DNA from: a virus
Length of the DNA: 35,165 bases
IMG/VR virus record: IMGVR_UViG_3300044994_000086
Span: 1-35,165 of that record
Strand: one strand, 5' to 3'
Shown here: piece by piece, positions 764 through 34,205 of the stretch
How the letters are laid out: each line of letters opens with the position of its first letter
Position numbering within the stretch: the first letter of the stretch is position 1
Notes under the pieces: generated by a model
Database searches by the model: none
What the model was told of the DNA's origin: nothing
What the model saw: the letters and a program-made list of their open reading frames with translations, nothing else
Made by a program: the position numbers and the translations under genes

Positions 764-769
764 GCGGGG

Positions 770-2663: not shown

Positions 2664-2687
2664 GCGCTGGATGGGAAAGGCAAAGAC

Positions 2688-4781: not shown

Positions 4782-4785
4782 AGCC

Positions 4786-4836
4786 GTGGGAGCGAGCCTG
4801 GCGGCGGGTTGGCGGCTCATCGAGGTGGGGCCATGA
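4786..4836 (+). CDS. 16-residue mini-ORF coupled to the next gene
   Basis: A GTG at 4786 is preceded by a strong ribosome site (GAAAGGAG, 4771-4778) and opens 16 codons (VGASLAAGWRLIEVGP, with the first V read as Met). The stop TGA (4834-4836) overlaps the ATG of the following 72-residue gene. It fills the only gap between the holin and that gene, so the good ribosome site would otherwise have no gene. It may be a leader that couples translation. A second ORF of exactly the same length and geometry precedes the portal gene. Confidence 0.4.
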   Translation: MGASLAAGWRLIEVGP

Positions 4837-5051: not shown

Positions 5052-5053
5052 CC

Positions 5054-5104
5054 ATGAACCCCGGCGCGTTTATGGCCGCTTCTTGCGGCAGCGCAACGCC
5101 ATGA
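5054..5104 (+). CDS. 16-residue mini-ORF coupled to the portal gene
   Basis: ATG 5054 begins a 16-codon frame (MNPGAFMAASCGSATP). Its TGA (5102-5104) overlaps the portal ATG at 5101. AGCAGGGA (5041-5048) upstream is a fair ribosome site, whereas the portal start itself has only a weak one. The likely effect is that ribosomes finishing this ORF restart on the portal gene. The peptide itself may have no function. It matches the 4786-4836 ORF in length and in its ATGA junction. Confidence 0.4.
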   Translation: MNPGAFMAASCGSATP

Positions 5105-7050: not shown

Positions 7051-7064
7051 CAGGCAGCAGAACG

Positions 7065-7595
7065 ATGAGCGCAGAGACAACGGGCGCGCCCTTGGCACGC
7101 ATCCGAACCATGAGCATTGGCCGGCGGGCGCACGGCGTTCCCGATCAGATCGTGACGGCGGGCCTCGCCGGGGCGCTCGAACGCCATGTCGCGCCGAAAT
7201 GGTACGGGTGCATCCTGTTCAGCGACGGCTACGGCGTGTTGATGCCTTCGGCAAGCGAAGTCGGCCCGCCGGCAGAGCACGTCGTCAACTGGATGGCGCA
7301 TACCGCCGCCGCGCTGAATGTCGAAGCGCACACGGGCGGCCATTGGGTCGTGGCCTGGTCGCACGACAGCCAGGAGGCGGTTCTGCTGTGGCGCGATGGA
7401 GACGGGCACGCTCACGTCGCCATCGAAATCGCCGCCAAGCCAGACCGCATTGAGGAATATACGCCCGATCGCGTCGTTAACCTAGGCATCCAGGGCGTCA
7501 CGGAATACCGGCAGCGTTTCGCCATGCTGGCGCTGACCGAGAAGCAGATCACGCGCGCACCGTCGGCACGCGGCCACCTGACGCGCGCCCACTGA
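7065..7595 (+). CDS. Hypothetical phage protein (176 aa)
   Basis: ATG 7065 lies 15 nt after the portal stop. The protein is mixed alpha/beta, with a central section around KWYGCILFSDGYGVLMP and HWVVAWSHDSQEAVLLW, and a basic, probably flexible tail. No membrane segment, signal peptide or active-site pattern is seen. Its position between portal and scaffold, and its C/G-ending codons, support an authentic head-module gene. I do not recognise a family. It could be an assembly or minor head protein, but nothing in the sequence proves that. Confidence 0.65.
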   Translation: MSAETTGAPLARIRTMSIGRRAHGVPDQIVTAGLAGALERHVAPKWYGCILFSDGYGVLMPSASEVGPPAEHVVNWMAHTAAALNVEAHTGGHWVVAWSHDSQEAVLLWRDGDGHAHVAIEIAAKPDRIEEYTPDRVVNLGIQGVTEYRQRFAMLALTEKQITRAPSARGHLTRAH

Positions 7596-7606
7596 CAAGT
7601 TCGCCC

Positions 7607-7626
7607 GCGACCAGCGTGATGGTCGC
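7607..7626 (+). other. Hairpin between hypothetical gene and scaffold
   Basis: GCGACCA (7607-7613) pairs perfectly with TGGTCGC (7620-7626) around the loop GCGTGA. There is no T tract, so it is a weak terminator candidate. It could instead slow RNA decay or modulate expression of the scaffold and capsid genes just downstream. Confidence 0.35.
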
Positions 7627-7687
7627 CCCGCCGCCTGGGTCAAGGGCGTTTCCGGCATCCCACCGAGAACGGGAACAGAGGGACACC

Positions 7688-8734
7688 ATGGAGCTCACGA
7701 CAGACGCCGGGGCGGAAGCCCCCGGCACCAATGACCCACACCTGCCGCCGCCGGCAGACCCCCAGGCGGGCCAGTCGCCCGCCATGCCGGACGACCCGGA
7801 TGAGGCCGAACTGGCGGAGGCGCGCCGCGAGGCAGCCGCCGCAGAAAGCCCCGCCGAGTTGCAGTCGGCAGCAGGGCAGGAGCCAAAGCCCGCGCACCAG
7901 AACACCGAGGCCCCGGCCAAGAGTGCGCCTGGACCCATCCCGTACGAGCGGTTTGCGGAAGTCGCGGCCGAACTGCGGAAGGTGCGCGAGTCGGAAGCCT
8001 ACCTGCAGGGACAGCTCGATGCGCTGAGGGCGGCGAAGCCGCCGACGGAAACGCCGCCGGTCGTGGAAAACCCATCTGCGGCCCCGGCCAATCCGGCCGA
8101 CGAGATCAAGGCGCTGCGAGCCAAGGTCGAGGAGGCGGCGGAGCGGTTCGACAACGGCGAAATCGGGATGCGCGAGTACGAACAGGTGCGCGCGCAGGCC
8201 GAGGATCGCATTGCCGAACTGAACCTGCAGCGGGTGGCGCAGCCGCCAAGCGGGGGCTTGGCGGATGAGGCGTTGCTGGCTTCCCATGCCGCAAGGCTGG
8301 ACGCCGAGCATCCGTATCTGCCTGTGCTCGAACTCTCGCAACTTCGAGAGCTGCAAGCCATGGCGGAAGCGGCCGCGCTGGTCCGTGGCCAGCCTTATGG
8401 GCAGGGACCGCGAGAACTGATGCGGCTCAGGCAGGATGTGGCCAGACTGTCCGACATTCATGGGCCGGAGATGGTACCCAACTTCAAGCCTCCGGCACGC
8501 TCTCCATCATCCACCGCACCCAGCAACGGCACCGGCCGCTACCCCGATCTTTCGCCCGCCGCTCAGGCGCGCGCGCGGAAATTGGAAATGGCGGCCGACA
8601 TGCCGCCCAACGTCAACGAGATGGGCTCGGCGGGCGGGACAGACGGCTTCTCGGACGCGCGCATCAACGCGATGACCGACGACGAGATCGCCGCCCTGCC
8701 TGCTGCCGTCCGCGCCCGGATCCTCAGCAGATAA
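7688..8734 (+). CDS. Scaffolding protein (putative)
   Basis: Scaffolding proteins shape the prohead and leave before DNA fills it. This 348-residue product lies directly before the capsid gene and has the usual character: an acidic, Ala/Pro/Glu-rich N-terminus, helical charged segments at about residues 84-114 and 136-184 likely to form coiled coils (for example IKALRAKVEEAAERFDNGE), and a mostly disordered C-terminal part. No protease motif is visible. ATG 7688 was chosen because a purine-rich GAACAGAGGGA lies just upstream; an in-frame ATG at 7619 is possible but has no ribosome site. Scaffolds vary too fast for a firm family call, so this rests on position and composition. Confidence 0.75.
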   Translation: MELTTDAGAEAPGTNDPHLPPPADPQAGQSPAMPDDPDEAELAEARREAAAAESPAELQSAAGQEPKPAHQNTEAPAKSAPGPIPYERFAEVAAELRKVRESEAYLQGQLDALRAAKPPTETPPVVENPSAAPANPADEIKALRAKVEEAAERFDNGEIGMREYEQVRAQAEDRIAELNLQRVAQPPSGGLADEALLASHAARLDAEHPYLPVLELSQLRELQAMAEAAALVRGQPYGQGPRELMRLRQDVARLSDIHGPEMVPNFKPPARSPSSTAPSNGTGRYPDLSPAAQARARKLEMAADMPPNVNEMGSAGGTDGFSDARINAMTDDEIAALPAAVRARILSR

Positions 8735-8745
8735 GGCACAACATC

Positions 8746-9852
8746 ATGGCGACCACGAACTTCGGGGCTCTCAACACCGCGCAGAAGCGCGTGTGGGCGA
8801 GCGAAATCTGGATGGCCGGGCGCGATCAGAACTTCTGGATGAGCCAGGGGTTCGTCGGCACCGGGGCCAACAACGTCATCGAACGCATCACCGCGCTCAC
8901 GGAAACGGAACGCGGCCGCGTGTGCGTCATGCAGCTTGTCGGCGACATCGTTTCGGATGGCGTCGTGGGCGACAACCTCCTCCAGAACAACGAGGAGAGC
9001 ATGTGGAACGACACGATCGAAATCCGCATCGACCAGATCCGCCAAGGCGTGCGCTCGCGCGGCAAGATGGCGGAGCAGGAGACGGTCGTTCGGTTCCGGT
9101 CGGTCGGGCGCGAGAAGCTCGGGTTCTGGATGGCCGACAAGCTGGACGAACTGATGTTCCTCACCATCAGCGGCGTCTCCTACGGCCTCAACCTGGACGG
9201 CTCCACGCGGATCGCGTCGAGCCAGCTCCCCAGCCTCAGCTTCGCCGCCGACGTGGCGACGCCGACAACCGGGCGGCGCGTCTTTGCTGGCACGGCCACC
9301 AGCACCGCCACCCTCACGGCGGCGGATCGCGTTTCCTGGAACGGACTCGTCGGACTGCAGGCGTTTGCCAAGCGCAAGCGCATCAAGCCGATCCGCGCGG
9401 GCGGCCGCGAATACTATGCGATGCTGCTGTCCACGGAGCAGATGCGCGATCTCAAGCAGGACACGAACTACCAGACCATCGTGTCCCGCGCTGGCCCGCG
9501 GGGTGACAGCAACCCCCTGTTCCGGGGCGCCACGGCCGTCGTCGAGAACCTGGTGATCTACGACCACCAGAAGGTCTACAACACTCTCGGCCTCGCCAGC
9601 GGGTCGAAGTGGGGCGCGGGCGGCACCGTCGATGGCGCGCAGGCATTGCTGCTGGGCGCGCAGGCCATGGGCTTCGCCACCATCGGCAACACCGAGTACA
9701 ACGAGAGCGACAACACGGACTACGGCAACCGGCCCGGCATGTCCGTCGGCCGAATGATCGGCATGATGAAGCCGCAGTTCCAGTCGATCTTCGATAACCG
9801 CACCCGTCAGGACTTCGGTGTGGTGTCGTGGTTCACGGCGGCGGCGGCCTGA
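8746..9852 (+). CDS. Major capsid protein, N4-gp56/DUF4043-like
   Basis: This is the main shell protein, expected to adopt the HK97 fold. The product is 368 residues. Typical segments for the N4-gp56/DUF4043 group are GANNVIERITALTETERGR, then VVGDNLLQNNEE, then IEIRIDQIRQGVRSRGKM with the basic loop, and EKLGFWMADKLDELMFL. The Ala/Thr-rich region around residues 175-195 would be an insertion or surface loop. The ribosome site is short (AAGG about 10 nt before ATG 8746). A strong hairpin terminator follows the stop, as expected for a highly expressed gene whose transcript is partly ended here. Confidence 0.9.
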   Translation: MATTNFGALNTAQKRVWASEIWMAGRDQNFWMSQGFVGTGANNVIERITALTETERGRVCVMQLVGDIVSDGVVGDNLLQNNEESMWNDTIEIRIDQIRQGVRSRGKMAEQETVVRFRSVGREKLGFWMADKLDELMFLTISGVSYGLNLDGSTRIASSQLPSLSFAADVATPTTGRRVFAGTATSTATLTAADRVSWNGLVGLQAFAKRKRIKPIRAGGREYYAMLLSTEQMRDLKQDTNYQTIVSRAGPRGDSNPLFRGATAVVENLVIYDHQKVYNTLGLASGSKWGAGGTVDGAQALLLGAQAMGFATIGNTEYNESDNTDYGNRPGMSVGRMIGMMKPQFQSIFDNRTRQDFGVVSWFTAAAA

Positions 9853-9867
9853 TCCGCGCCATCCAAG

Positions 9868-9898
9868 AGGCGGCGCGTCGGAGAGGCGCGCCGCCTTT
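9868..9898 (+). terminator. Rho-independent-type terminator after capsid gene
   Basis: AGGCGGCGCG (9868-9877) pairs perfectly over 10 bp with CGCGCCGCCT (9887-9896) around a 9-nt loop and is followed by TTTCCTCCC. The stem is very GC-rich and the T tract is short. Position 16 nt after the capsid stop supports a role as a partial terminator that sets capsid mRNA level. Confidence 0.7.
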
Positions 9899-9933
9899 CC
9901 TCCCATCCCCATTTCAAGCAACAGGAGGTCCGC

Positions 9934-10677
9934 ATGAGCGGCACCCGTCTTTTGACCTACGAGGCCCAGCTCAACGACGCCAGCCGCGAAGCGCCCAACC
10001 TGCTCGCGCTGGCGGGCGGCGCGGCGATCGTCACGCTCCCCAACTCGCCCAAGAAGGCGACGCTGTTCAACCCTGACACCGGCCAGGCGCTCGCCAACCC
10101 GGTGTCCCTGACGCGCGGGCGCCTGCGCTTCGCCACCCAAGACAATGTGCCGGTGGTGGACATCTACGGCTTTGGCCCCGACGGCGGCTTCTTCATCCGC
10201 CGGGGCCTGCGCGCGGGCGCGGAGCCGCAAATCACCTATGCCTTCGACCAGATGGAGCATCTGGCCGTCGTGCCCATGGCCATCCAGGATTTCGTGGCCA
10301 ACACCGAAGGCAACACGGGCCTCCAGTTCGCGCTGGGCTCGCTTCTGCTGCCCACGCCCGCCTTCCGCGTCACGACGCAGGAGGCGTCGCGGACGGTGAG
10401 CGTGGGGCTGCTGTCCACGGAATCCGGCGGCAACGCGACGGGCCTTCTCGCCGCGTTGTCCCTCGCCGCATTGGGCACGATCGGCCCGGCGGTGTCCGGC
10501 ACGCCCACCCTCGGCGCGCTGCTGGTGCAGAACTTCGCCACCAGCCCCGCGGTCAACGTGCCCCACGCGCGCGCGATCGCGCCGGCGACGGCGCGCACGA
10601 TCAGCGTCACGTTCTCCGCCTCCACGGCGGCGGCCCAGGGCTACTTCGTGCAGCCCTACCTCAAGCCCGCGAGCTGA
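9934..10677 (+). CDS. Structural protein after capsid (putative head decoration)
   Basis: The product is 247 residues, with the best ribosome site in the head module (CAGGAGG, 9921-9927, 6 nt before ATG). The N-terminal half contains LANPVSLTRGRLRFATQDNV and VVDIYGFGPDGGFFIRRGLR, a pattern seen in genes just after capsid genes in other phages. The C-terminal half is Ala/Thr/Gly-rich and beta-like. It stands alone between two hairpin terminators, which suggests separately tuned, high expression. A decoration or head-fibre protein is the likely role. No enzyme motif is present. Confidence 0.7.
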   Translation: MSGTRLLTYEAQLNDASREAPNLLALAGGAAIVTLPNSPKKATLFNPDTGQALANPVSLTRGRLRFATQDNVPVVDIYGFGPDGGFFIRRGLRAGAEPQITYAFDQMEHLAVVPMAIQDFVANTEGNTGLQFALGSLLLPTPAFRVTTQEASRTVSVGLLSTESGGNATGLLAALSLAALGTIGPAVSGTPTLGALLVQNFATSPAVNVPHARAIAPATARTISVTFSASTAAAQGYFVQPYLKPAS

Positions 10678-10680
10678 TCT

Positions 10681-10712
10681 GGTGACGGCGCCCTCGCGCG
10701 CCGTCACCCTCC
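10681..10712 (+). terminator. Rho-independent-type terminator
   Basis: GGTGACGGCG (10681-10690) pairs perfectly over 10 bp with CGCCGTCACC (10699-10708) around an 8-nt loop, followed by CTCCCTTTCC. It starts three bases after the preceding stop. With the hairpin at 9868-9898 it brackets one structural gene. Confidence 0.7.
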
Positions 10713-10741
10713 CTTTCCATTCACTTGGCAACGAGGATCAC

Positions 10742-11314
10742 ATGTCCGACCGCATCCAGGCGACCGAGAGCGCCACGCACCTGTATTGGGCCGTCATCGA
10801 CACCAATGCGCGCGGCATCACGCGCAAGCACGAGCCGGTGCTCGGGGCCGTCTACGACCTTTCGGCCGAGAAGAGCACCAAGATGCCCAAGGCGCATGCC
10901 GTCGCGTTCTTGCGCGACCCGGCCTTCAAGGTGCTCGACGAGAACGGCGAGGTGCAGATCCCGCTTCCCGAGGTCGAGGCGCTCGACGCGCGCAAGGCGC
11001 GGCCGGCCGATCTTGAGCCGGGGCAGACCATCGCGCGCTTCGAGGAGTTGACCGACACCGCGCTTCTGGCGCGGGTGCTGGTGCGGCCGGGCGGCCATGC
11101 GATCAAGCCGTCCTCCCGAGAGGCGATGATCGACTTCCTGATGGGCGCCCCGCTCAAGGCGGAACTGCCCGCCAGCGAACGGCTGCGCGTCAGCGAGATG
11201 GCAGACCCCGACATGATGCCGGACAGGCAGGCGGCCAGAATGCTCGGGTCCGGCGCGCCGGAAGTGGGGCGGGCACAGGGCGGGGCGGCCGATCTGCTGC
11301 AGATGGACGGGTAG
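10742..11314 (+). CDS. Hypothetical phage protein (190 aa)
   Basis: ATG 10742 follows the short ribosome site CGAGGA. The N-terminus is beta-like (THLYWAVIDTNARGITRKHE, then a small domain with FLRDPAFKVLDENGEVQIPL). The C-terminal third is charged and probably flexible. It has no membrane or catalytic features. Its position between the head genes and the gp4-like connector suggests a minor virion or assembly protein. I do not recognise the family. Codon use matches neighbouring true genes. Confidence 0.65.
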   Translation: MSDRIQATESATHLYWAVIDTNARGITRKHEPVLGAVYDLSAEKSTKMPKAHAVAFLRDPAFKVLDENGEVQIPLPEVEALDARKARPADLEPGQTIARFEELTDTALLARVLVRPGGHAIKPSSREAMIDFLMGAPLKAELPASERLRVSEMADPDMMPDRQAARMLGSGAPEVGRAQGGAADLLQMDG

Positions 11315-21293: not shown

Positions 21294-24200
21294 ATGGCCA
21301 GCATCGCTTCGATCTCTCTGCCCGGCCCCGCTTCGGCGGGCAGCGCCAACGCCCCGGATGAGTGGCTTCTGCCCGACGAGCCGCCCGCGCCCCGCGGCCG
21401 CATCGGCGGCGTCGGTGGTGCGGCCGTCATTGGCTTGCAGCGCCAACTCGGGCCGTTGCCCGGCGGGCACATCGAGCCGCCAGCCCCCGCGCCGCTGCAG
21501 TTCCGCCCGCCGGCCCCGGCGCCTGAGCCGCCGCCGGTGGTCGAACCGGCGGAGCCATCGCAACCGTCGGCAGGCGAGCGCCGCTACGAGGAAATGGGCA
21601 CGCTGGGCAGGATGGGCGAGCAGCTCCGCTCAGGCGTTGAGACGCTGCGCCAAGGCTTCGGGTCCATGCGCCTCAACTTGGCCGTGCAGCGATTGCAGGA
21701 ACTAGATCAGATCGACGCCGCCGGCGACGACTTTGCGAGATTGCCGCCGCGCCTGCAACGCTACGCCGGCAGCGCCATGGCAGAGGAGCGGCAGCGCCAG
21801 CGGGCCGCGGCAGAGGCCCAGCTCGCGGAGGCGCTTGGCGGCATCCTGGCGTCGCAAGCGCGCCAGCGCGATCTCGCGTCCAACCCTCGCGCGCGCGCTC
21901 TTGTGGAAGCGGCCAACGCCGGCAGGTGGGGTGAGGTGTGGTCGCTGCTGCGCGAGGATCCGGCTGGCATCATCCAACAATTCGCGGTGGAAAGCGCCCC
22001 GTCGTCGCTGCTCTCCCTCGGGCCGGCAGCGGCCGGCGCCGTCATCGGCGGACGCGGCTTGGCGGCGGTCGGTGGTGGCATCGGCGGGTTCATGGCTGAA
22101 GCTGGGCCAAGGCTGGTGGAGGGGCTGGGCGAGGCTATGCGGCGCGCGGGCGTGGACACGTCCAACCAGGAGGCCGTCAGCGCATGGATGCGCGCCAACC
22201 CGCAGGCCCTTGAGATCGCGCAGCAAGAGGCTGGCCGTGGCGCCCTTGGGCCAGCAATCGCGGATGCTGTGACGCTCGGCCTCGGCATGGGCCTCCGCCC
22301 CGGCGCTGGCGCCATCCGCAACACCGGCCGGGTGGCCGGCAACGTGGGCGTCGAGATTGCGTCCGAGGCGGCGGGCGAGGCGCTAGGCCAGGTGTTCGAG
22401 AGCGGCAAGGTCGAGAAGCCCGGCGAGGTGTTGGCGGGCGGGCTTGGCGCGGCCCCGCAGGCGGCTGGCTCCACGGCTGTCGGCACGATCATCGAGCTTC
22501 GGAACGGCGCTTCAAGCGCAGCGCCTTCCAGCCCAGGGGCGGAGGCGACGGGCGCCTCGCCAGCGGGCGCGCCGACGCCCGGCATGGTCATCGACGGCCA
22601 AGCCGAGGAAGTGCCTTCCCCGCCCCCTCCCGCGCCCCCGCCGCCGCCCCCTCCCGCGCCCCCGCCGCCGCCCCCTCCCGCGCCCCCGCCGCCGCCTCCT
22701 CCCGCGCCCCCTCCCGCGCCCCCGCCGCCGACCCCTCCCGCGCCCCCGCCGCCGCCTCCTCCCGCGCCCCCTCCCGCGCCCCCGCCGCCGACCCCCAACA
22801 CAGGCCGCCAATCGCTTGAGCAGGCGCTAGCCGACGCCCGCCCCGTGCCGCAGCGCATGGAGGAGGAGCGCGAGGCGCGCGAAGAAGCGGCGCGCCGAGC
22901 CTCCCGCATTGCCGAGATCCAGAACGCGCTTCCGCAGGGCTGGACCGTGGTGGACGAGGACGGGCTGATCAGCGTGCTCGACCCCAACGGCGACTGGCTG
23001 CAGCAGTTCGACGCGCCCCCGCGCGACATGGAGGGCCTGCGGACCCTGCTGGACGAGGTGGAGGAGGCGAACCAGCGCGGCATCCGCGAAGGGCTCTACC
23101 CCTCGCCCGGCGCGCCCGGCCGAGCCGGGGATTTGCAGGAAGGTCCGGGTGACGCGCCCCAAGCAACCAGTAGCCCGACGGAGCTGGCCCCCGAACTGGT
23201 CGAGCGCTTGCGCGCCGTGCGGCAGGGCTATGTCGAGTTGGCCGACGATCGCGCGGGCCTCATCGACGACCTTCTGCAGCAGCGGCCGGACTATGCGGGC
23301 AATCCGCCCTTGCAGATCACGCCCGAGGTGGTGGAGGAGTACGAAGCGGAACTGGAAGCGGCGCGCGCCGAGGAGCTTAGGTCGCGGGCGCGCCAGCGGC
23401 GCGACCGGACCATCCGCACCATGGTCCCCGGCTCGCCTCAGCAGCAGCGCAACCAGGCTGCGGCCTTGGTCCGCCGCGTGCGCCAGGTGGCAGATGGCTA
23501 CCGGCAGATGGGCGACGCGGCCATGTCACGCAGCGTGCGCCGCATCGCCTCTGGAGCGGCCGATGGCGGCGAGCTGACGCAGGCGCAAGTCGAGGCGCTG
23601 GAGGAGGCGCTGGAGAAGGCGCGGGAAAACGCGCAGCAGCGCGATACAGCGCAGCCGGCGGGGCCTGCACTCCAGGACACACCGGGCGCCTCTGCGCCGC
23701 TCGCCAGCACACCCCAAGAGGCGATGCGCCTTCTGCGGGAAAACCCGTTCCGGCATATCCGCCTGCCGAATGGTGGCTACGTCCGGGTTTCCCGCGCACG
23801 CGAGGGGATCTTCCTCGAAGCCTCCGATGGCAACACGACCATCTCGCATGACGATCTCGCCGGCAGCAAGATCAACATGTTGAACCTGGAAGAAGCGGCC
23901 CGCAACGCGCTGGACCGGCTGAACTTCGCGCCCGCAGCCAAGCCCACACTGGCGGCACCGCCCGCAGACGAGGCCGCAGCCCCCGCCCCGTCACAAGCCC
24001 CGGCCCCCAATGTCACAACTCCGGCGCCCACCGCAGGCCCGGCAACGGGTTCCGGGGCGGCAAATGTCACACCCCCCTCTCCCACCGGCACGCCTCGCTC
24101 CGCGCCGACCTCCGATCTTCAGGCCCGCAAGGCGGCGGCCAAGGCCAAGTTCGCCGCCGCCCTCCGCGCCCAGGGCCAGCGCCTCAACGCGGGCATCGAC

Positions 24201-27200
24201 CCGGCAGTGCTCGCGGCCGGCATCGAGCTTGGCGCCATCTACATCGAGGAGGGCCTGGTCAAGTTCCGCGAGTGGGCTCGCGCCGTGCTGAAAGATGCCA
24301 TCGAGATGGGCCTCGACCCCGAGGCGGTGAAGCCCGTCCTGAAGCCGGTTTACCTTGCCACCAGCGCCGAAGTGCCAGACGATCTTGCGGAACAGATGGA
24401 CGATCGGGCAACTGTCCGCAGCTTCGACCTCGACACGCTCGACCAACCCGAAGGAGACACCAATGCTGACAGAACGGGAGGTTCTGACGCTCCGCGCGGA
24501 GGAACGCCGACGCCGCCGGGATCCCGAACTGATGCACAATCTGGAGATGCACAGGCGGATCCTACGATCGTGGGAGATGGAGCGCCCCGCGATGTGGAAG
24601 CGCCTGAAGGCGCAGAACTTGACGGAGACGATGGCGTTCCTGGCACAGCAGCGGATGTGGGAGGAACAGGACCGGCTGATGAAGGGGGGGATGCCTCTGA
24701 CGGACGCCCGAGAGATGGCGGAACGGGAGCACCTGCTGCTGGGGCCGGAACCGGAGCCAGAGGAGCCATGGCCTCCGGCGGAAGCGGACCCGTTGGCGGA
24801 ACCACCGGAAGCGTAAAAACGCCCGCGCCGGGCAGCCCCTCGGCGGGCGATTTTCATATCGCGGATCCTGCGGCCCTGTTGGGCGGCGGACCCGTCGCGC
24901 GGTTCAACCGGAACCGGACGGCGATCGAGACGCTGAACGCCATCCGAGACAGTGACCGCCCCGCCACGCGCGAGGAGCAGGCGAAGCTGGCCGGCTACAC
25001 CGGCTGGGGGTCCTTCGGGCAGGATTTGTTCAAGGGCACATGGGAGCGCCCCGACCCGCGCCCCGGGTGGGAGGAGCGCGACCGCTGGCTCCGCGAGCAT
25101 CTGGGCAAGGAGGCGTGGCTGTCTGCCCAGGCCAGCATCCTGAACGCGCATTACACGGACCCGCCGGTGGTGCTGGCCATGTGGGACATGGTGCGCCGCG
25201 CAGGCTTTGAAGGCGGGCGCGTGCTGGAACCCTCGATGGGCACCGGCAACTTCTTCTCGCTGATGCCGCTGGACCTGAAGGCACGCAGCGACCTGACGGG
25301 CATCGAGCTCGACACCACCACGGCCGCGATCGCCAAGCTGCTGTTCCCGGATTCCAACATCCAGCAGATGCGCTATCAGGACAGCCGCACGCCGGATGGC
25401 TTCTATGACTTGGTGATCGGCAACTGGCCCTTTTCCGGGCAGACGGTGCCAGATCGGCGGCATGGGAAGCTGAAGCCCACGCTGCACGACTTCTTCTTCC
25501 TCAAGGCGCTGGATCAGGTGCGTGCTGGGGGCCTCGTCATCGGCATCACCAGCAATGGCACCATGGACAAGGAGAGCACGCGGGTTCGCGCCCACTTGGC
25601 GCGCAACGCCGAACTGGTGGCGGCATTTCGCCTGCCGACAGGGGCCTTTGAAGGCTATGCCGGAACGGCGGTGGTCACGGACATCGTGATGCTGAAGAAG
25701 CGCGCCACGCCGCTGCTGGAGACGCCCGATGAAGCCTGGGTGAAGGCTTCCATGGTGCCGACGCCGGCGGGTCCCGAAGTGCGGCTGAACGGCTACTTCC
25801 AGCAGAACCCGGATCGGGTGCTGGGCACGGTGAACTACGGCAGCGGCACGACGCGCGGCTCGCCCGGGCTGATTGTGGACCGCCCCGACAACCTGATGGA
25901 GAGGCTGACGGCGGCGGTGGCCCTGGTCCCGGAAGGGGTCTATGAGCGCGAGCGCGTCAACAATCGCATCTCCTACATCACGAACCACACCGACGATCGG
26001 GAGGGCGCGCTGGTGTTCCAGGGCGATGTCCCGTTCATCGTTCGCGGCGAGCACCTCGCCCCGGCCGATCAGGTGCATCGCTATGAGGTGAAGGACGCAA
26101 AGCAGACGGCGGCGCGCGTCGCGCAGATGCGCGAGCTGGTCGCCATGCGCCGCGCGTACGCCGAACTCATCACCAAGGAGCGGGCCGGCGAGGACGCCGA
26201 GGCGGCGCGGGCGGCGCTACGCAGCCTGTTCACCGCCTACGAGAAAGCGCACGGCAAGCTGCTCGACTCCTTCGGGATGCGCTACCTCGCCAAGATCGGA
26301 GATCCGTTCTTCCCAGCCCTGGCCGCTCTGGTGCAGAAAGACGGGACGCCGGCGGCGATCCTCTTCCGCTCCACGATGCGGGGGAAGCGCCGGCTGGAGA
26401 ACCCTAGCATCATTGACGCCTTCGTGGTGGCGCGGCAGCAGAGCGTCCGTCCCACGCTGCGCGAGGTTGCCGCGCTGACTGGCAAGACGACGGACGAGGT
26501 GAAGGCCGCGCTCATCGAGGCCGGCGCGGTGTTCGAGACGGTGGATGGCGATGTGGAGCCGGCCGACCTCTACCTCGCCGGCAATGTCCGCATGAAACTG
26601 CGCCAGGCGATGGCGGCGGTGGCGGCGGGCCAGAACCATTTGCAGCGCAATGTGGACGCCCTGAAGGCGGTGCAGCCCAAGGACGTGCCGTATTACGACA
26701 TCGAGGTGCAGTTCGGCGCGACCTGGGTGCCTGAGGCCGTTTATGAAGAATATGTCGCCCACATGCTGAATCGCCAAAATACCGACGGCATCAGCATCCG
26801 GTTCACGCTCGGGCGCTGGAAGGCCCGCCTCACTGACCTCAATGGATTGGCGGCCGCCCGCAGCGGCTTCGGCATGGACGACCGGCGCGTGCCGTTCTCG
26901 CGGCTGCTGCAAGCCGCCCTGTCCAACCAGACCTTCAAGGTCATGGCGCGCGATCCCATCACTGGCACCGACTATCTCGATCAGAACGCCACAAAGCAGG
27001 CGACCGAGCGCATTGCCATGATCCGGTCGTCCTTCGCGGAGTGGCTGTGGAAGGATCCTGAGCGGCGCGTCACCTTGGAGGAAGCCTATAACGAGGCGCG
27101 CAACTCGCACGCCACGCCGAAATACGATGGCTCCTTCATGGCCTTCGAGGGCATGGCGCTCTCCATCGGCCGCGGCCCCTTCCAGCTTCGGGAGCATCAG

Positions 27201-30200
27201 GTCAACGCGATCTGGCGTGCGATCGTCAACCGGAAGTCGATCAACGCCCATGAAGTGGGCACCGGCAAGACCTTCACCATGGGCGGCATCGCCGTGGAAA
27301 GCCGGCGCTATGGCATTGCCAAGAAGCCGCTGATCCTGGCGCACAACGCCAACAGCAAGGCGGTGGCGACCGAGATCCAAGCCATGTACCCGGCGGCCAA
27401 GGTTCTCTACATCGACAACCTTGCGCCATCCGATATTGACGTGCAGCTTCGCCGCATCGCCAATGACGATTGGGATGCGGTCGTTCTGCCTCATTCGCAG
27501 ATCGGCCGCCTTGCGCTCTCGCGCGAAACGCTGCTGGCCATCGCGGCCGAGGAGATCGCGGCGCTGGAAGAGGCGGCGATTGAGGCCGCGAAGGAGGACA
27601 ACAGCGCCCTGACCGTCCAGCAGATGGACGCCATTCGGAATGGCGACAAAAAAGCCGCCGGCCGGCTGCGCTCGCTCACGGCGAAGGATCTGGTGCGCGC
27701 CCGCAACGCGGTGCTGGACAAGATCGACGCCCTCGCCCAGCGCGCCAGCCGCGACAAGGCCGTGCAGTTCGAGAACCTGGGGATCGACATGATCCTCGTG
27801 GACGAGGCGCACGAGTTCAAGAAGCCGCCGATTGTCACCGGCATGCGGATGAAGGGGTTGCAGACAGCGACATCGAATATGTCGATCGCGCTCAACTTCC
27901 TCACAAGCTACGTCCGGCGGCAGAACAACGGCAACAACATCCACACCTTCACCGGGACGCCAATCACCAACACGCTGGTCGAGATCTTCCACCAGATGCG
28001 TTACATCATGCTGGAGGAGATGAAGGAGGCGGGCGTCGATACCTGGGACGCTTGGTTCGCCAGTTTCGCCCGCGAAGTGCAGGACGTTGAACTCTCGGCG
28101 GCGGGCGAATATGAGCCGATCACGCGCCTCGCGGCCTTCATCAATGTGCCCGAGCTTCGCCGCTTGGTCGGGCGATATCTGGACATCGTGTTCGCGGACC
28201 AAATGCCCGAGATGCAGCCGCGCCGGTCCAAAAGCGGCAAGACGATGGCCGACATTGCGGCCATCGAGTCCGCGCTGACGCAGGCGGCAGAGGGGCGCGC
28301 GCAGAAGGTGCGGCGCGTCATGCCCGAGGAACCCCGCGAAGCGAGGGCATTCATCCGCGAGGCGGTGTACGGCAACGACAAAGGCGCGCTGGAATGGTTC
28401 GCGGCGCAGCTGGCCGACGCCGACATAGTGAGCGCCGAGTGGCGGCAAGTGCAAGGGCTGGTCAACTCGGCCTTGGCGCTGTTCCGAGACCGGACGCGGA
28501 ACCTGCCGGCGCGCCTAAAGGCGCTGGAGCGCGAGCGCGTCGAACTGGAAAACGGCCGCACCGAGGACGCCACCGACCGCCCCTACAAGAAGGTCATCAA
28601 CGTCACCTCCGAGATGACGGAAGGGCAGGTGGCCATCTTCGAGCGGTTGCAGACCGACGCGAGGCTCTTCCGCGACGCGACCGGCCGAGAGCGTTTCGAG
28701 ATGCTGCGCGAGGGCCACCCGGCGAGCCCCATCATCGTGGAGAGCGGGGCCAACCTCGCCAGTTTTGATGAGCGCATGTACGACCGCAACCGCTTGCGCG
28801 ACAGCCCGCTCGCCGGCCAGGAGGGCACCGCCCCCTTGGACCCGCGCAGCAAGGTCGCCCAAGTGGTCAAAAACGTCATGGAGATCTACCGCTCCGACGA
28901 CCGCGCCAATCAGGTGATCTTCGCCGACCAGGGCTACAACACGACCGCACAGCGGGAGATCCCCGGGACGGACCCAAAGCAGACGGCCAAAGTCAAGACG
29001 TTCTCCGCCATCCTTGATCTGGTGGAGCGATTGGTGCAGGCGGGCATTCCGCGCGAGCAGATCGCCCTAGTCACCGGGGGGACCAGCGCGGAGAGGAAGT
29101 TCGAGATCGCGCAAGACATGAACGAGGGCCGCCTGCGGGTGGTCATCGGCCGATCCGACACGCTGGGCGTCGGCGTCAACATGCAGCGCAACCTGCGGGC
29201 CATGCACCACATGGACGCTCCCTACATGCCTGGCGACCTTGAGCAGAGGAACGGGCGCGGCTGGCGACAGGGCAACCAGTGGAACACGGTGCTTGAGTAT
29301 CGCTACATCACCGACCGCTTGGACGGGCGGCGGTGGCAGATCCTTGCCATCAAGCAGCGATTCATCCTCGCCTTCCTGCGCGACAACCAGGCGGGCCGCA
29401 TGATCGAGGGCGAAGCGGCGTCGGATGCTCCCTCCGACTTCCTCGAAAGTTTTGCGGAAGCGGCAGGCGACCCCCGCTCGCTGATCCGCGAGCAGATGCG
29501 GCGCAAGCTGGCGATGTTGAACCAAGCCGAGCGCATGCACGGCCAGGCGATTGCCGACTCGCGCCGCATGCTGACCGAGAAGTTGTCGGAGAAGAAGCGC
29601 ATCACGGAGTGGCTGGAGAATGCCACAAAGAAGGATGGCCCGCTCGCTGCAACGACCGCGTTGCTTGAGCGCATCCGCGGCGATGGCTTCACGGCGACCA
29701 TCGGCGGCAAGAAGGTGACGCATCGCGCCGGCGCCAAGGCGGCGCTCGAAAGCATTGCGGCCGACATGCGCCAAGGCGACACCGACCGCCCTGTGGGCGA
29801 GATCGGCGGCGTCAAGGTCAGCATGTCTTGGCCGCGGCTCGCGACCGCACCGCAGTTGCGGATGACCCTCGGCGGGCATGACTTCGACGGCCCAAGTGTC
29901 GCCAGCCTGGAAGCCCAGATGCGCGGGTTCCTGGACCGCCCCGCCCAGATGCGCAAGAAGGCTGCGGAGGTGGACGCCGAAATCGAACGCTTGCGCGAGG
30001 TGGTGAGCGCGCCGTTCAGCCGTGCGGCGCAGTTGAAGCAGGCAAAGCAAGCCCTGGCGGATCTGGAGGCGGATCTGGCGGCCAACCCTGTCGCACCGCC
30101 CGGCTGGCTCCGCATCGGCACGCCACGCGACAGCACGGTGTTCTGGCGCGGCAAGCCATTCACTGTGACGGGCCACCGATGGACCCGCGACGGATGGTTC

Positions 30201-33200
30201 GTTCTGGCCGAAGATGAGCGCGGCAGCGTCGTGATCCCCTACATGGAGGCCACCGATCAGCAGGGCATCCCGGCCTACGAGGAGCGGCCGTTCACGCCCC
30301 CTGTGGTGGTGGACAGGCGCGCTCAAGGCCAGCAGGGCGGCGCCATCAATCTCGACGCGCCGGACGACGCGGAGGGAATGGCGCCGAGCCTAAGTGAGCC
30401 CCAAGGCGGGGACAGGGTGGTGGATTTGCCCGCGCCAGAACGTATCCTTCCGGCTGCTCTGGACGCGCTGCGCCAAGTGCTTCGGACGATCGCCGGCCCC
30501 GAGGTGGATTTGGACCAAGCAGGCGAAATGAATTTGAGCGGCTCGCTTGCCCGCGCCCACGCCGTAATCGCTGGCCCTCTGGTCCGGCTGGCTTTTGCGC
30601 TGGAGGCACAGCGGGCTCCGTGGGCTGTGCGGCACGAGGCCATCCATGCGCTCAGAAACATGGGGCGCATCACGGATGCCGAGTGGGCAATCTTGACGGA
30701 GGCTGCGGAGCGCGAAGGCTGGGCCAAGCGGTTCAACATCGCGAAGCGATACGAAAGGGTTTTCGGGTCCAGGAACGACGCCGCCGACCGCATGGCGGAG
30801 GAAGCGGTGGCCGAGGCATTCGCAGAATGGGCGACGGGCAACGCGCCTCAAATCAGCGGGCCGGTCGCTCGCATCTTCCAAAAGATCCGGCGGTTCCTTG
30901 TGCGGTTGCGCAACGCCATGCGCAACCGCGGCTTCCGCGACGAGAGCGACATTTTCCAGTCCATCGCGGCGGGTGAAATGGGGCGGCGGCCGATGGGCGA
31001 GCGGCGGGGCGTCACGTCCATGCGCGAAGCCTCCGCCCAACTGGATAAGGCCATCGGCCGCACGGTCGCGGACACGGCGCCTGCAGATGCTAGCGCGGGC
31101 GAGGCGCTGGACGAGCTATTCGCCTCCCTGCCCGCAGCCGCCCGCACGGCTGTCAAGAAGGCATCGACGGCGCTGCGCGAGGAACGCCTGGGCGTGGTGC
31201 TACGGCTGTGGAAGGGGACGCCGCTCCCCTCGGGCGTCGAGGTTAAGGAGCGCGCGGCCGCGCGCGACATCCTGCCGGTGCTGTCCCGCTTCCGCCTGCC
31301 GACGCGCATGTTTGCGCGCGTGCCCGCGCTGGCCGAGTTGGTGCAGCGCGGCGTGGCGGCCGAGCGGCGGATGGCGCGGTGGTCGCGCACCATGAACGAC
31401 CAACTCGACGCCATCCTGGGCGAACTCGAAAAGGCCCGCGGCAGCCGCGAGGCTGTCACCTTGGCGCTGCTGGACGCCGACGCGCAGGGCATCAAGATCG
31501 AGGATCCGAAGATCGCGCAACAGCACTTCGCCCACCACGGCCTGTCGGCAGCCGAGGCCAAGGCGGCGGCGGCGATCAACACAATGCTGGTGAAGGCCGC
31601 GCGCCTGGTGGACCAGCATCGGCGGGCGATGATGCCGCAGGTGCGGCGCGAGAAGGCGCGCTTGTGGAAGCGCATGAGCGAGCTATTCGACCGTGGGGCC
31701 GTCGAGGCGGAGGGCTACGCGAAGAAGTACCGGCGCCGCGCCTACCTCACGCGCCGTATCCGCGAGGGTAAGGGCGACCTCGCCGCCCAAGCGGCGGAGA
31801 TCGCCAGCCTGAACGCGGACCTGCGCGCCATGCGGATCGCCGACCCCGACAAGCAGGAGCAGATGCGCCGCCTTCAGGAACAGTACGACGAGGCGGAGGC
31901 GCGGCTGACGGCGACGAGCGTGCGCCGGAAAGACGGCTACTTCCCGCACAAGTTCTATGGCTCCTGGAGGCTGTTCGTGCTGGGCGAAATCGACGAGGAG
32001 ACGGGGGAGCGCGCGCGCACCGAAATCACCAGCGACCAGGGATTTTACAACACGCGCGACCAAGCGGTAGCGGCCGCGCGCACTTACCTCGCGCAAAACC
32101 CCGGCGCGAGCCTTGTCGTCGAGCCGAAGCTGGTGGCGCTACCGGGCGGGCAGGGAGCCATCCTGTCCAGCGCAGAGTTCATGCGCCTGAAGCGCGGGCT
32201 GGAGCGCGAAGCCGGCTTGGAAGGCGAGGAACTGGCGGCCGTGCTGCAGGGCGTGGCGCGCCGTGAGGCGCGGCGCCGGACCTTCCAACCGGGCATGAAG
32301 CGCACGGGCGCGGCGGGCTTCTCGCGCGATCTCGAACGGGTGATGCGGACGCACTTCGCTCAGACTGTCCGCTACGTCGAGATGGACAAGATGAAGTTCC
32401 ATTATGTGTCCGAGATGGAACGCTTGGGCCTCGCGCCTGTCGCGCGATCTACCAAGGTGACGGGGGACGACCCGCGGGCGGAACTTGAGCGCGCCATGCA
32501 GGCGTGGTGGCGCGACCTGAACGGCGCGCCGCAGCCTGGCGAGGCCGTCGTGGACCGGCTGATTGCCGCCTTGCCGCTTCCAGGCGCGACGCTGGCAGCG
32601 GCGGCGGTCGCCGGTGTGATCGGGACCGGAATCGCCAACCCGGTGGTGGGAGCAATGCTCGCCGCCTACAGCGGCCTGCGCCTCTACCGCGCCGCCGTCA
32701 AGAACCCCGACATGACGACGCGGCAGTTCATGGGCGATGTGGCGAGCGACGTGGCACACCTGAAACTCGGGCTGGTGCTGAACCTTGCCTCCGCGACGGT
32801 GAACCTCTCGCAGACCGTCATCAACACCTACCCGATCTTGGGCGAGAGGTGGACGGGGGTTGGCTTGGCGCGGGCGATCCCCGCCCTCTGGTCGCTTTCC
32901 ATCAACGCTGGGCAGCGCGGGCGCATGTCGGGCGATGCCATCCTGCTGGAGCGCGCGGGCATCCGGTCCAACTTTTCGGTGACGGCCGACAGTCCTGCCG
33001 CGCTGATCGAGGACAGGACGACGCTGGAGCGCCTGAAGAAGCTGTCCATGCTGGCCTTCCAGTCGGCGGAGCAGATCAACCGCGCGACCGCGTTCCTGGG
33101 CGCCTTGGCGCGCGCGGAGGCAAGCGGCAAGCAGCCAGGCCCGGCGTTCCAGGAGGCTGTCGAGGTGCTGGGCCGCACGCAATTTGAAGGCGGTGTCGCC

Positions 33201-34205
33201 ACGCGGCCGGAAATCCTTCGCAGCCACCTGCTGCGCCTGCCGACGCAGTTCAAGAACTTCATGGCGCAGCAGATAGGCTTCGTGATGGGGCTGCGCGGCG
33301 CAGAGATCCCACGGTTCCTGGGATCACTGTTCCTGCTCGCCGGGGCGTTCGGCTTGGTGCTGCTGCCAGCCATCACCGAAATGATTGACTGGCTGACCGG
33401 GTGGGATCCGCTGAACTGGCTGCGCGATCAGGTCATCCGCGCCGGCGCCGAGGGCGCGCTGGCAGGCACAGCCGCCGATGTACTGGCGCGCGGCCTGCCC
33501 GCGCTGTTGGGCATCGACATTTCGGGGCGTGTCGGCATGGGCGTGGGCTTCGTGCCCGAAAGCCCCTCGGACTTGACGGGTCCCTTCATCGGCACGCTGG
33601 GCAGGATGAAGCAGCTTGGCGAAAACAACGCCCGCGTGACGGACTACCTGGCCGCGCTGACGCCCGCGGCCAACCCGCTGCGCGTTCTCGAGGCCGCAGC
33701 CAACGGCGCCAGCATTTTCTCCGAAGCGTTCTGGACAGGCGGGTTGTTCGGTGACGGCAAGGCGGTGATGCGTCAGCCGACAAAGCGCGGGCAGATCCAA
33801 TACGCGCCGACGAACGCCGAGTTGGTGGTGCAGGGCATGGGCTTTCGGCCGCTGCGCGCCGCACTCCTGCAGGACGCCCGCCAGGTGGAGGCGGAGCAGC
33901 GCCGCGAGCGCCGCCGGGACGTGAACTTCTACCTCGCCGAGATCGTGGACGCGCGCCGCAACATGCCGCACCCGGACCTCCAGACGCCCCATGCCGAAGC
34001 CATCCGGGAGCGGCAGCGCGAGCGAATTCGCCGTGCGATTCAAAATGCGCGGGCCGACGGCGTGCGCCTCACCCAGCGCCAGATCAACGAGGCGCTGAAA
34101 GCCGCCGACCGGCCCCAGGCTGACCGCGATTTGCAGAACGCGCCGCGCGATCAGCGCCGCGAGATGCGGGAGCGCCAGCGGGCTATCGAGGAGCGGGCGC
34201 GGTAG
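21294..34205 (+). CDS. Giant polyvalent protein: methyltransferase-helicase-metallopeptidase (4303 aa)
   Basis: This is probably injected with the DNA to modify or protect it, as for phage DarB-like and other polyvalent proteins. In order: residues 1-440 are Ala/Gly-rich and ejection-type; 443-501 is a Pro/Ala repeat; about 945-1020 is a small conserved helical module (KFREWARAVLKDAIEMGLDP). Next is a methyltransferase domain with HYTDPPVV near 1286, motif I-like VLEPSMGTGNFF 1310-1321 and NWPF 1377-1380. The SF2 helicase has HEVGTGKT 1986-1993, DEAH 2170-2173, TGTP 2220-2223, LGVGVNMQ from 2624 and EQRNGRGWRQ 2650-2659. A metallopeptidase-like HEAIH is at 3114-3118. The C-terminal 1000 residues are helical, with hydrophobic stretches near 3757-3803 and 4010-4032. 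Between about 1057 and 1185 the frame is Gly/Asp/Ala filler with poor codon use, overlapping another gene. The real unit may be two genes, the second starting at ATG 24768 (3145 residues). Confidence 0.85.
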   Translation: MASIASISLPGPASAGSANAPDEWLLPDEPPAPRGRIGGVGGAAVIGLQRQLGPLPGGHIEPPAPAPLQFRPPAPAPEPPPVVEPAEPSQPSAGERRYEEMGTLGRMGEQLRSGVETLRQGFGSMRLNLAVQRLQELDQIDAAGDDFARLPPRLQRYAGSAMAEERQRQRAAAEAQLAEALGGILASQARQRDLASNPRARALVEAANAGRWGEVWSLLREDPAGIIQQFAVESAPSSLLSLGPAAAGAVIGGRGLAAVGGGIGGFMAEAGPRLVEGLGEAMRRAGVDTSNQEAVSAWMRANPQALEIAQQEAGRGALGPAIADAVTLGLGMGLRPGAGAIRNTGRVAGNVGVEIASEAAGEALGQVFESGKVEKPGEVLAGGLGAAPQAAGSTAVGTIIELRNGASSAAPSSPGAEATGASPAGAPTPGMVIDGQAEEVPSPPPPAPPPPPPPAPPPPPPPAPPPPPPPAPPPAPPPPTPPAPPPPPPPAPPPAPPPPTPNTGRQSLEQALADARPVPQRMEEEREAREEAARRASRIAEIQNALPQGWTVVDEDGLISVLDPNGDWLQQFDAPPRDMEGLRTLLDEVEEANQRGIREGLYPSPGAPGRAGDLQEGPGDAPQATSSPTELAPELVERLRAVRQGYVELADDRAGLIDDLLQQRPDYAGNPPLQITPEVVEEYEAELEAARAEELRSRARQRRDRTIRTMVPGSPQQQRNQAAALVRRVRQVADGYRQMGDAAMSRSVRRIASGAADGGELTQAQVEALEEALEKARENAQQRDTAQPAGPALQDTPGASAPLASTPQEAMRLLRENPFRHIRLPNGGYVRVSRAREGIFLEASDGNTTISHDDLAGSKINMLNLEEAARNALDRLNFAPAAKPTLAAPPADEAAAPAPSQAPAPNVTTPAPTAGPATGSGAANVTPPSPTGTPRSAPTSDLQARKAAAKAKFAAALRAQGQRLNAGIDPAVLAAGIELGAIYIEEGLVKFREWARAVLKDAIEMGLDPEAVKPVLKPVYLATSAEVPDDLAEQMDDRATVRSFDLDTLDQPEGDTNADRTGGSDAPRGGTPTPPGSRTDAQSGDAQADPTIVGDGAPRDVEAPEGAELDGDDGVPGTAADVGGTGPADEGGDASDGRPRDGGTGAPAAGAGTGARGAMASGGSGPVGGTTGSVKTPAPGSPSAGDFHIADPAALLGGGPVARFNRNRTAIETLNAIRDSDRPATREEQAKLAGYTGWGSFGQDLFKGTWERPDPRPGWEERDRWLREHLGKEAWLSAQASILNAHYTDPPVVLAMWDMVRRAGFEGGRVLEPSMGTGNFFSLMPLDLKARSDLTGIELDTTTAAIAKLLFPDSNIQQMRYQDSRTPDGFYDLVIGNWPFSGQTVPDRRHGKLKPTLHDFFFLKALDQVRAGGLVIGITSNGTMDKESTRVRAHLARNAELVAAFRLPTGAFEGYAGTAVVTDIVMLKKRATPLLETPDEAWVKASMVPTPAGPEVRLNGYFQQNPDRVLGTVNYGSGTTRGSPGLIVDRPDNLMERLTAAVALVPEGVYERERVNNRISYITNHTDDREGALVFQGDVPFIVRGEHLAPADQVHRYEVKDAKQTAARVAQMRELVAMRRAYAELITKERAGEDAEAARAALRSLFTAYEKAHGKLLDSFGMRYLAKIGDPFFPALAALVQKDGTPAAILFRSTMRGKRRLENPSIIDAFVVARQQSVRPTLREVAALTGKTTDEVKAALIEAGAVFETVDGDVEPADLYLAGNVRMKLRQAMAAVAAGQNHLQRNVDALKAVQPKDVPYYDIEVQFGATWVPEAVYEEYVAHMLNRQNTDGISIRFTLGRWKARLTDLNGLAAARSGFGMDDRRVPFSRLLQAALSNQTFKVMARDPITGTDYLDQNATKQATERIAMIRSSFAEWLWKDPERRVTLEEAYNEARNSHATPKYDGSFMAFEGMALSIGRGPFQLREHQVNAIWRAIVNRKSINAHEVGTGKTFTMGGIAVESRRYGIAKKPLILAHNANSKAVATEIQAMYPAAKVLYIDNLAPSDIDVQLRRIANDDWDAVVLPHSQIGRLALSRETLLAIAAEEIAALEEAAIEAAKEDNSALTVQQMDAIRNGDKKAAGRLRSLTAKDLVRARNAVLDKIDALAQRASRDKAVQFENLGIDMILVDEAHEFKKPPIVTGMRMKGLQTATSNMSIALNFLTSYVRRQNNGNNIHTFTGTPITNTLVEIFHQMRYIMLEEMKEAGVDTWDAWFASFAREVQDVELSAAGEYEPITRLAAFINVPELRRLVGRYLDIVFADQMPEMQPRRSKSGKTMADIAAIESALTQAAEGRAQKVRRVMPEEPREARAFIREAVYGNDKGALEWFAAQLADADIVSAEWRQVQGLVNSALALFRDRTRNLPARLKALERERVELENGRTEDATDRPYKKVINVTSEMTEGQVAIFERLQTDARLFRDATGRERFEMLREGHPASPIIVESGANLASFDERMYDRNRLRDSPLAGQEGTAPLDPRSKVAQVVKNVMEIYRSDDRANQVIFADQGYNTTAQREIPGTDPKQTAKVKTFSAILDLVERLVQAGIPREQIALVTGGTSAERKFEIAQDMNEGRLRVVIGRSDTLGVGVNMQRNLRAMHHMDAPYMPGDLEQRNGRGWRQGNQWNTVLEYRYITDRLDGRRWQILAIKQRFILAFLRDNQAGRMIEGEAASDAPSDFLESFAEAAGDPRSLIREQMRRKLAMLNQAERMHGQAIADSRRMLTEKLSEKKRITEWLENATKKDGPLAATTALLERIRGDGFTATIGGKKVTHRAGAKAALESIAADMRQGDTDRPVGEIGGVKVSMSWPRLATAPQLRMTLGGHDFDGPSVASLEAQMRGFLDRPAQMRKKAAEVDAEIERLREVVSAPFSRAAQLKQAKQALADLEADLAANPVAPPGWLRIGTPRDSTVFWRGKPFTVTGHRWTRDGWFVLAEDERGSVVIPYMEATDQQGIPAYEERPFTPPVVVDRRAQGQQGGAINLDAPDDAEGMAPSLSEPQGGDRVVDLPAPERILPAALDALRQVLRTIAGPEVDLDQAGEMNLSGSLARAHAVIAGPLVRLAFALEAQRAPWAVRHEAIHALRNMGRITDAEWAILTEAAEREGWAKRFNIAKRYERVFGSRNDAADRMAEEAVAEAFAEWATGNAPQISGPVARIFQKIRRFLVRLRNAMRNRGFRDESDIFQSIAAGEMGRRPMGERRGVTSMREASAQLDKAIGRTVADTAPADASAGEALDELFASLPAAARTAVKKASTALREERLGVVLRLWKGTPLPSGVEVKERAAARDILPVLSRFRLPTRMFARVPALAELVQRGVAAERRMARWSRTMNDQLDAILGELEKARGSREAVTLALLDADAQGIKIEDPKIAQQHFAHHGLSAAEAKAAAAINTMLVKAARLVDQHRRAMMPQVRREKARLWKRMSELFDRGAVEAEGYAKKYRRRAYLTRRIREGKGDLAAQAAEIASLNADLRAMRIADPDKQEQMRRLQEQYDEAEARLTATSVRRKDGYFPHKFYGSWRLFVLGEIDEETGERARTEITSDQGFYNTRDQAVAAARTYLAQNPGASLVVEPKLVALPGGQGAILSSAEFMRLKRGLEREAGLEGEELAAVLQGVARREARRRTFQPGMKRTGAAGFSRDLERVMRTHFAQTVRYVEMDKMKFHYVSEMERLGLAPVARSTKVTGDDPRAELERAMQAWWRDLNGAPQPGEAVVDRLIAALPLPGATLAAAAVAGVIGTGIANPVVGAMLAAYSGLRLYRAAVKNPDMTTRQFMGDVASDVAHLKLGLVLNLASATVNLSQTVINTYPILGERWTGVGLARAIPALWSLSINAGQRGRMSGDAILLERAGIRSNFSVTADSPAALIEDRTTLERLKKLSMLAFQSAEQINRATAFLGALARAEASGKQPGPAFQEAVEVLGRTQFEGGVATRPEILRSHLLRLPTQFKNFMAQQIGFVMGLRGAEIPRFLGSLFLLAGAFGLVLLPAITEMIDWLTGWDPLNWLRDQVIRAGAEGALAGTAADVLARGLPALLGIDISGRVGMGVGFVPESPSDLTGPFIGTLGRMKQLGENNARVTDYLAALTPAANPLRVLEAAANGASIFSEAFWTGGLFGDGKAVMRQPTKRGQIQYAPTNAELVVQGMGFRPLRAALLQDARQVEAEQRRERRRDVNFYLAEIVDARRNMPHPDLQTPHAEAIRERQRERIRRAIQNARADGVRLTQRQINEALKAADRPQADRDLQNAPRDQRREMRERQRAIEERAR
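22620..22796 (+). repeat. Pro/Ala coding repeat in giant gene
   Basis: About 177 bp of near-perfect tandem repeat, mostly 24-bp units encoding variants of PPPAPPPP with two PPTP-type variants. It separates the N-terminal ejection-type part of the giant protein from the rest and should form a stiff, extended linker. Long runs of CCN codons like this usually need EF-P for translation. Confidence 0.85.
24451..24456 (+). promoter_or_regulatory. Strong ribosome-binding site inside the giant ORF
   Basis: AAGGAG sits 6 nt before ATG 24463, which is ideal spacing for a Shine-Dalgarno site. In the giant frame the same bases encode part of QPEGDT, where no start is needed. This decides the start of the overlapping gene. 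Confidence 0.7.
24463..24816 (+). CDS. Overlapping gene in the giant ORF, 117-residue helical protein
   Basis: In the +1 frame relative to the giant ORF, ATG 24463 has an excellent ribosome site and opens 117 codons ending at TAA 24814-24816. The product reads like a real protein: a charged helical N-terminus (MLTEREVLTLRAEERRRRRD), helices with spaced Trp and Met (ILRSWEMERPAMWKRLKAQN, FLAQQRMWEEQDRLMKGGM), then a Pro/Glu-rich tail. Its codons end mostly in G or C, as in the rest of the window. The giant frame through the same bases uses many GGA, GAT, GCA and AGA codons and encodes Gly/Asp/Ala filler. A terminator-like hairpin begins 3 nt after the stop. The family is not recognised. A small regulator or partner of the polyvalent protein is possible from position only. 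Confidence 0.7.
   Translation: MLTEREVLTLRAEERRRRRDPELMHNLEMHRRILRSWEMERPAMWKRLKAQNLTETMAFLAQQRMWEEQDRLMKGGMPLTDAREMAEREHLLLGPEPEPEEPWPPAEADPLAEPPEA
24820..24854 (+). terminator. Terminator-like hairpin inside the giant ORF
   Basis: CGCCCGC (24820-24826) pairs with GCGGGCG (24843-24849) around a 16-nt loop. It is preceded by an A run (24815-24819) and followed by TTTT (24851-24854). It starts 3 nt after the stop of the overlapping 117-residue gene. Such a structure is unexpected in the middle of one long gene and supports a gene boundary here. Confidence 0.45.

Follow-up and report, generated by a model that had tools for sequence, protein, structure and literature searches.

Within the 35,165-nt viral sequence analyzed here (IMG/VR record IMGVR_UViG_3300044994_000086, hereafter the window), a giant open reading frame of 12.9 kb (21294-34205, + strand, 4303 aa) wholly contains a second open frame of 117 codons, shifted to +1 and equipped with its own start signals. 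The question raised by this locus was whether the same bases code for two proteins, or whether three adjacent genes appear as one because the long frame remained open by chance. Both possibilities had been put forward in an initial annotation made from the sequence alone.

The giant gene and the embedded frame

The giant ORF is composed of an N-terminal region, a disordered-looking linker, N6-adenine-methylase-like and SNF2/ResIII helicase-like domains, and a long C-terminal part. The profile phrog_10089 matched on both sides of the linker: its positions 1110-1355 aligned with residues 743-1052 (23520-24449, + strand; E 3.7e-13), and the post-linker section matched with E 0. Together with domain matches, among them weak ones to ResIII/SNF2 and Helicase_C, the profile also delimited a conserved methyltransferase-helicase section at 24849-28253 (+ strand). 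By these matches, the giant ORF is a predicted DarB-like antirestriction protein of the family phrog_10089. DarB-like or polyvalent proteins (phrog_10089; Bcep22 gp75, JC1 gp69; Iyer et al. 2017, PMC5512222) are giant methylase-helicase proteins of the phage morphogenesis module, and their gene is the host of the overlap; a search of that paper for the overlap and for TnpV found mention of neither. Portal and major-head genes precede the giant ORF, as they do in Bcep22-type phages. In one of these, JC1, the DarB-like giant gp69 was detected in virions by proteomics (PMC9144972). The small protein of JC1 is without annotation in that study and was therefore probably outside its proteomic search.

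The embedded gene occupies 24463-24816 (+ strand) and would encode a predicted helical, TnpV-like protein of 117 aa (P0001). The elements on which its initial description was based were all present: the Shine-Dalgarno sequence AAGGAG (24451-24456, + strand) 6 nt upstream of the ATG at 24463, the TAA at 24814-24816 closing 117 codons, an in-frame ATG of the giant frame at 24768, and a TGA in the third frame at 24467-24469. The Shine-Dalgarno sequence was read from the window itself, and such sites are common in related loci. The reported difference in codon usage was likewise reproduced, with mostly G/C-ending codons in the small frame (GC3 0.80 over 24463-24816) and many A/T-ending codons in the giant frame over the same bases (GC3 0.44), whereas GC3 of the giant frame was 0.83 upstream and 0.86 downstream of the overlap. 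Across the small gene, the giant frame encodes a Gly/Asp/Ala-rich linker (24462-24848, + strand) as the overprinted partner. Openness of the +1 frame was rejected as evidence of coding in the window, because this frame stayed open in 93% of synonymous-codon shuffles in which the amino acids of the giant protein were fixed.

A 7-bp GC hairpin (24820-24849, + strand), followed by an A and TTTT (24851-24854), was found after the small stop as described, but a role as terminator was not borne out. The hairpin was missing from the list of a terminator scan of the + strand, which revealed no excess, and no terminator-like pattern is kept in relatives. It is probably incidental.

Homologues, the sister family and a possible TnpV connection

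The same hidden gene was found at the same place in more than 90 related phage and mobile-element sequences, which indicates long-term maintenance of coding for two proteins in a single DNA stretch. The search with the 117-residue product that had been suggested initially was positive: tblastn returned homologues of P0001 in the Pseudomonas phages USP_18 and USP_25 (E 2e-12), inside a giant gene of 14.7-14.8 kb, in the same +1 frame and the same linker. Further homologues in IMG/VR and bacterial genomes, with identities from 77% downwards, lay nearly all within an open giant frame, at a site directly 5' of the methyltransferase domain of the phrog_10089 gene. These IMG/VR phages and prophages were associated with Delftia, Comamonas, Acidovorax, Rhodoblastus, Mesorhizobium, Sphingobium, and Acinetobacter. 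The motif LHxRILxTW..SPxM..RL..G.....AFV.Q.RMW...GMPVTDAREQAEREHLMLEPE was common to all homologues of P0001. When the methylase section alone served as query, so that the small gene could not influence the search, five new loci were recovered, and each of the five carried the small gene. Exceptions to the location within an open giant frame were two contigs of Skermanella aerolata (L019, L021) whose copies are rearranged or degraded, with an intact small frame and a break in the giant frame nearby; these are possibly prophage remnants or duplicated cassettes. Searches of P0001 against Pfam and PHROG gave no match, nor did a search of a plasmid collection with the P0001 family and its sister family. 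One scan that used a single protein as query likewise returned no relative.

This sister family consists of +1 ORFs that occupy the same place in the DarB-like genes, twenty-odd of them annotated, of phages such as Itty13, SopranoGao/LASTA, PEp14/Pavtok/Stean, VvAW1, Atu_ph08, POI1126, Mwe-JY07, and PBC5. Its type sequence is MNLNNWVSQARxHWKExxPxxYxxLxxxGxLxxALxxAAExTxxExxxLExxGxxxxEAWxMxRExYLFPPEE. Comparison of the P0001 family with the sister family by hhalign gave an E-value of 1.4e-7, against 0.01-0.66 for shuffled controls. A scan of IMG/VR for the sister family found the small ORF inside an open giant frame in 67/67 loci, and a Shine-Dalgarno match of at least 4 nt preceded 66 of the 67 starts, compared with 21% of the other ATGs in frame, the choice of starts slightly favoring such matches. 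In phages of the Bcep22 type, a diverged +1 gene occupies this position; it is conserved in seven phages and has a perfect AAGGAGG, an ATG, and a dN/dS of 0.37. The sister gene was annotated in none of the 21 INPHARED records that carry the family, where a larger or an antisense CDS is annotated instead. In Itty13 (L036, NC_070969.1), three large antisense ORFs are annotated in place of the giant gene (543-11023), which looks like a misannotation. In a Burkholderiales genome, a relative of the sister family stands alone (L152, 4084-4392, - strand; G494:C55), adjoining an IstB-like ATPase and a GmrSD type IV restriction gene.

+1 ORFs in the right place were also seen in 8P (L042) and in very distant DarB-like genes, namely those of PalP_Y7 (L043, 2639-2935), BKO1-TP3 (L049, 2621-2932), Dfl-JY45 (L050, about 2204-2977), and L031 (5471-5899). 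The homology of these five was not significant and they were left out of the homologue counts; for L031, L043, L049, and L050, the ORF may represent either a still more diverged version or a nested gene of independent origin.

The embedded +1 ORF of Firmicutes-like gut elements was identified as TnpV (PF14198), with 110.2, 86.9, and 29 bits for L044, L046, and L051, respectively (E 6.7e-32, 1.2e-24, and 1.1e-6; Pfam cutoff 27). TnpV was nested in a charged linker of a giant ORF in twelve loci (L044, L046, L047, L051-L055, L127-L130), and free-standing TnpV genes were found in phiNJ3 and L131-L140. The standalone copies contain 3-8 stops in the frame equivalent to the giant one and the embedded copies contain none. 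This internal control shows that the codons of TnpV do not by themselves leave the giant frame open. At L047, the giant frame changes frame downstream of the embedded TnpV (about 2432), which indicates a pseudogene or else an error of assembly.

P0001 itself was not matched by the Pfam model of TnpV (gathering cutoff 27 bits), and its relative in Itty13 reached 15.7 bits (E 0.015), below the same cutoff. By hhalign, the E-value between the sister family and TnpV was 5.5e-4; that of the direct comparison of the P0001 family with TnpV was 0.11, which is not significant. The predicted helices, compared by eye, are similarly spaced (H27-40, H42-50, and H54-74 in P0001; H28-40, H42-50, and H54-80 in TnpV), and both genes occupy the same place, nested at +1 in a giant polyvalent gene. 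Membership of P0001 in TnpV is suggestive only, and as it falls below the Pfam cutoff, we refer to it as TnpV-like and not as TnpV. TnpV of Tn4451-type elements resembles P0001 in helix spacing and small size, but is free-standing there, unlike the nested P0001, which the Pfam model misses. Its role in excision is only postulated, from its resemblance to lambda Xis (PMC3158075).

The AlphaFold model of P0001 is helical, with a pLDDT of about 90 in the core. Foldseek searches of the P0001 and TnpV models against the PDB returned nothing significant. The best structural neighbor of the P0001 model was PDB 2apl (VIA Z 6.0, 66 residues, rmsd 3.0), a value too low to be trusted for helical folds. 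This entry is PG0816 of Porphyromonas gingivalis, a DUF1896 (PF08989) protein. By sequence, P0001 had no significant match in the PDB and none to DUF1896. Searches of a few genomes for TnpV or DUF1896 returned nothing, but the controls gave no signal there either. The best match of the model in a viral structure library was Q8W6J4, a 1093-residue piece suspected to be PBC5 orf33.

Selection on the two frames and competing readings

A division of the long frame in relatives had been considered initially, and PBC5 was the only one split in that manner. In this phage (L032, AF448724.1, about 3936-4512), the N-terminal frame continues directly into that of the small gene, and a separate gene is annotated for the methylase; this looks like a one-base indel or an old sequencing error. 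The family phrog_938 ("endolysin") has the small domain at its end, apparently as a result of this frame break.

A programmed +1 frameshift from the giant into the small frame, which would generate a fusion of the N-terminal domain with the small domain, could be read from precisely these two cases, as PBC5 orf33 encodes such a fusion directly and phrog_938 has the small domain at its end. Since nearly every small ORF possesses its own Shine-Dalgarno sequence and an ATG or GTG at a conserved place, and the standalone TnpV genes are ordinary genes, we regard such a frameshift as improbable.

Selection was assessed with an estimator of dN/dS applied to 26 disjoint pairs, in which each change was classed by its effect in both frames. 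The small frame was under purifying selection, with a dN/dS of 0.271 (0.210-0.333) and values below 1 in 26/26 pairs. The giant frame was near neutral within the overlap (0.895; 0.729-1.099) and constrained downstream of it (0.146; 0.085-0.195). As a control, the non-coding +1 frame downstream of the overlap gave 0.79 (0.69-0.88); substitution bias places the estimator slightly below 1, but the contrast between the small frame and this control is still clear. Between the window and the related locus L008, changes at giant codon positions 1, 2, and 3 numbered 43, 23, and 16 in the overlap and 76, 56, and 207 downstream. Across the small gene, no stop was observed in the giant frame in 65 clusters, whereas 273 were expected when the small protein was kept unchanged and its synonymous codons were sampled from the usage of the phage, which was assumed to be like that of the downstream giant gene; the loci in this count and in the selection analysis are related and not fully independent. 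In low-GC elements, the probability that the giant frame is open by chance was below 1 in 1000 per locus. Judged from these substitutions and stop counts, the small frame is selected for its amino-acid sequence, and the giant frame in the overlap mainly for staying open.

The stop counts bear on the reading of the locus as three genes (about 21294-24467, 24463-24816, and 24768-34205) that look like one ORF through a chance opening and a lost stop. The annotation of a separate methylase gene in PBC5, where the N-terminal frame enters the small one, and the nearly unconstrained amino acids of the giant frame in the overlap would both fit this reading. It has nevertheless become very improbable, given that the giant frame is free of stops in intact relatives and open in low-GC elements against such odds, that both halves belong to the single profile phrog_10089, and that the DarB-like protein of JC1 was found in virions (PMC9144972). 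An indel between 24400 and 24470, for which a recheck had been advised, is unlikely as well, as the same frame is open in an IMG/VR contig whose small ORF and methylase stretch are identical to those of the window.

That the small ORF is spurious, a by-product of the Gly/Asp/Ala codon usage of the giant gene, would agree with the shuffles of the window alone, but has hardly any probability left in view of its dN/dS relative to the non-coding +1 frame under the same estimator, the Shine-Dalgarno sequences at the sister-family starts, the inverted codon-position pattern of changes, the confident helical model, and the homology to the sister family.

Origin and significance of the nested gene

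The small gene is strongly supported by comparison, in that its protein, position, frame, Shine-Dalgarno sequence, and selection are all conserved. We consider it very likely that 24463-24816 is a functional gene nested at +1 in the giant DarB-like gene, so that one transcript would give two products and the linker would overprint the small gene. Ribosomes starting at 21294 would read through the overlap as a flexible Gly/Asp/Ala linker between the N-terminal part and the methyltransferase-helicase part, and those starting at the internal AAGGAG and ATG would make a helical protein of 12-14 kDa, as the conservation of both signals suggests. Functionally, the linker may be little more than a tether. 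The overprinted gene in a translated linker, one of the two options offered initially, was thus the one strongly supported by the conserved frame and position, the Shine-Dalgarno sequence, and selection. What that annotation missed is that the linker is probably younger than the small gene, and that the latter falls into a widespread TnpV-like group, with the link to TnpV suggestive only.

The predicted fold, the existence of standalone relatives, and the concentration of nearly all sequence constraint in the small frame indicate that, of the two, the small gene probably came first and the linker arose as the overprint. The giant gene would then have grown by joining the flanking reading frames straight through the small gene. 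On balance, we lean slightly toward a TnpV-like gene nested at +1 in the linker being a general and ancient architecture of giant polyvalent methylase-helicase proteins, in which two flanking genes were joined through an older gene, the alternative frame of which became the linker, and which was kept in elements of Proteobacteria and of Firmicutes-type gut bacteria and in a cyanobacterial phage. Nesting would keep the small protein co-inherited and co-expressed with the giant one; an accessory function alongside the methylase-helicase protein in the producing cell is conceivable, and we propose it only tentatively.

Nested phage genes are a known kind. The lysis gene Rz1 in Rz (JC1 gp75/gp76, PMC9144972) is likewise a whole gene with its own start in an alternative frame of another, but the proteins are unrelated, and the nested gene described here is probably older than its host frame, which encodes a weakly constrained linker of a giant protein. 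Nesting in the linker of DarB-like genes was not described in the literature searched, the coverage of which was incomplete, and the small gene was annotated in none of the records examined. A conserved second gene has been overlooked in a large and often-annotated class of phage genes, including isolates of the Bcep22 type, LASTA, Itty13, PEp14, and VvAW1. As knock-outs or expression of DarB-like genes disturb two proteins, antirestriction experiments, past and future, need a control for the small product. Standalone and nested TnpV can be compared directly, which offers a clean system for measuring the upkeep of overlapping frames. Fusion through an older gene, with the linker as the overprint, would be a route to giant multidomain proteins.
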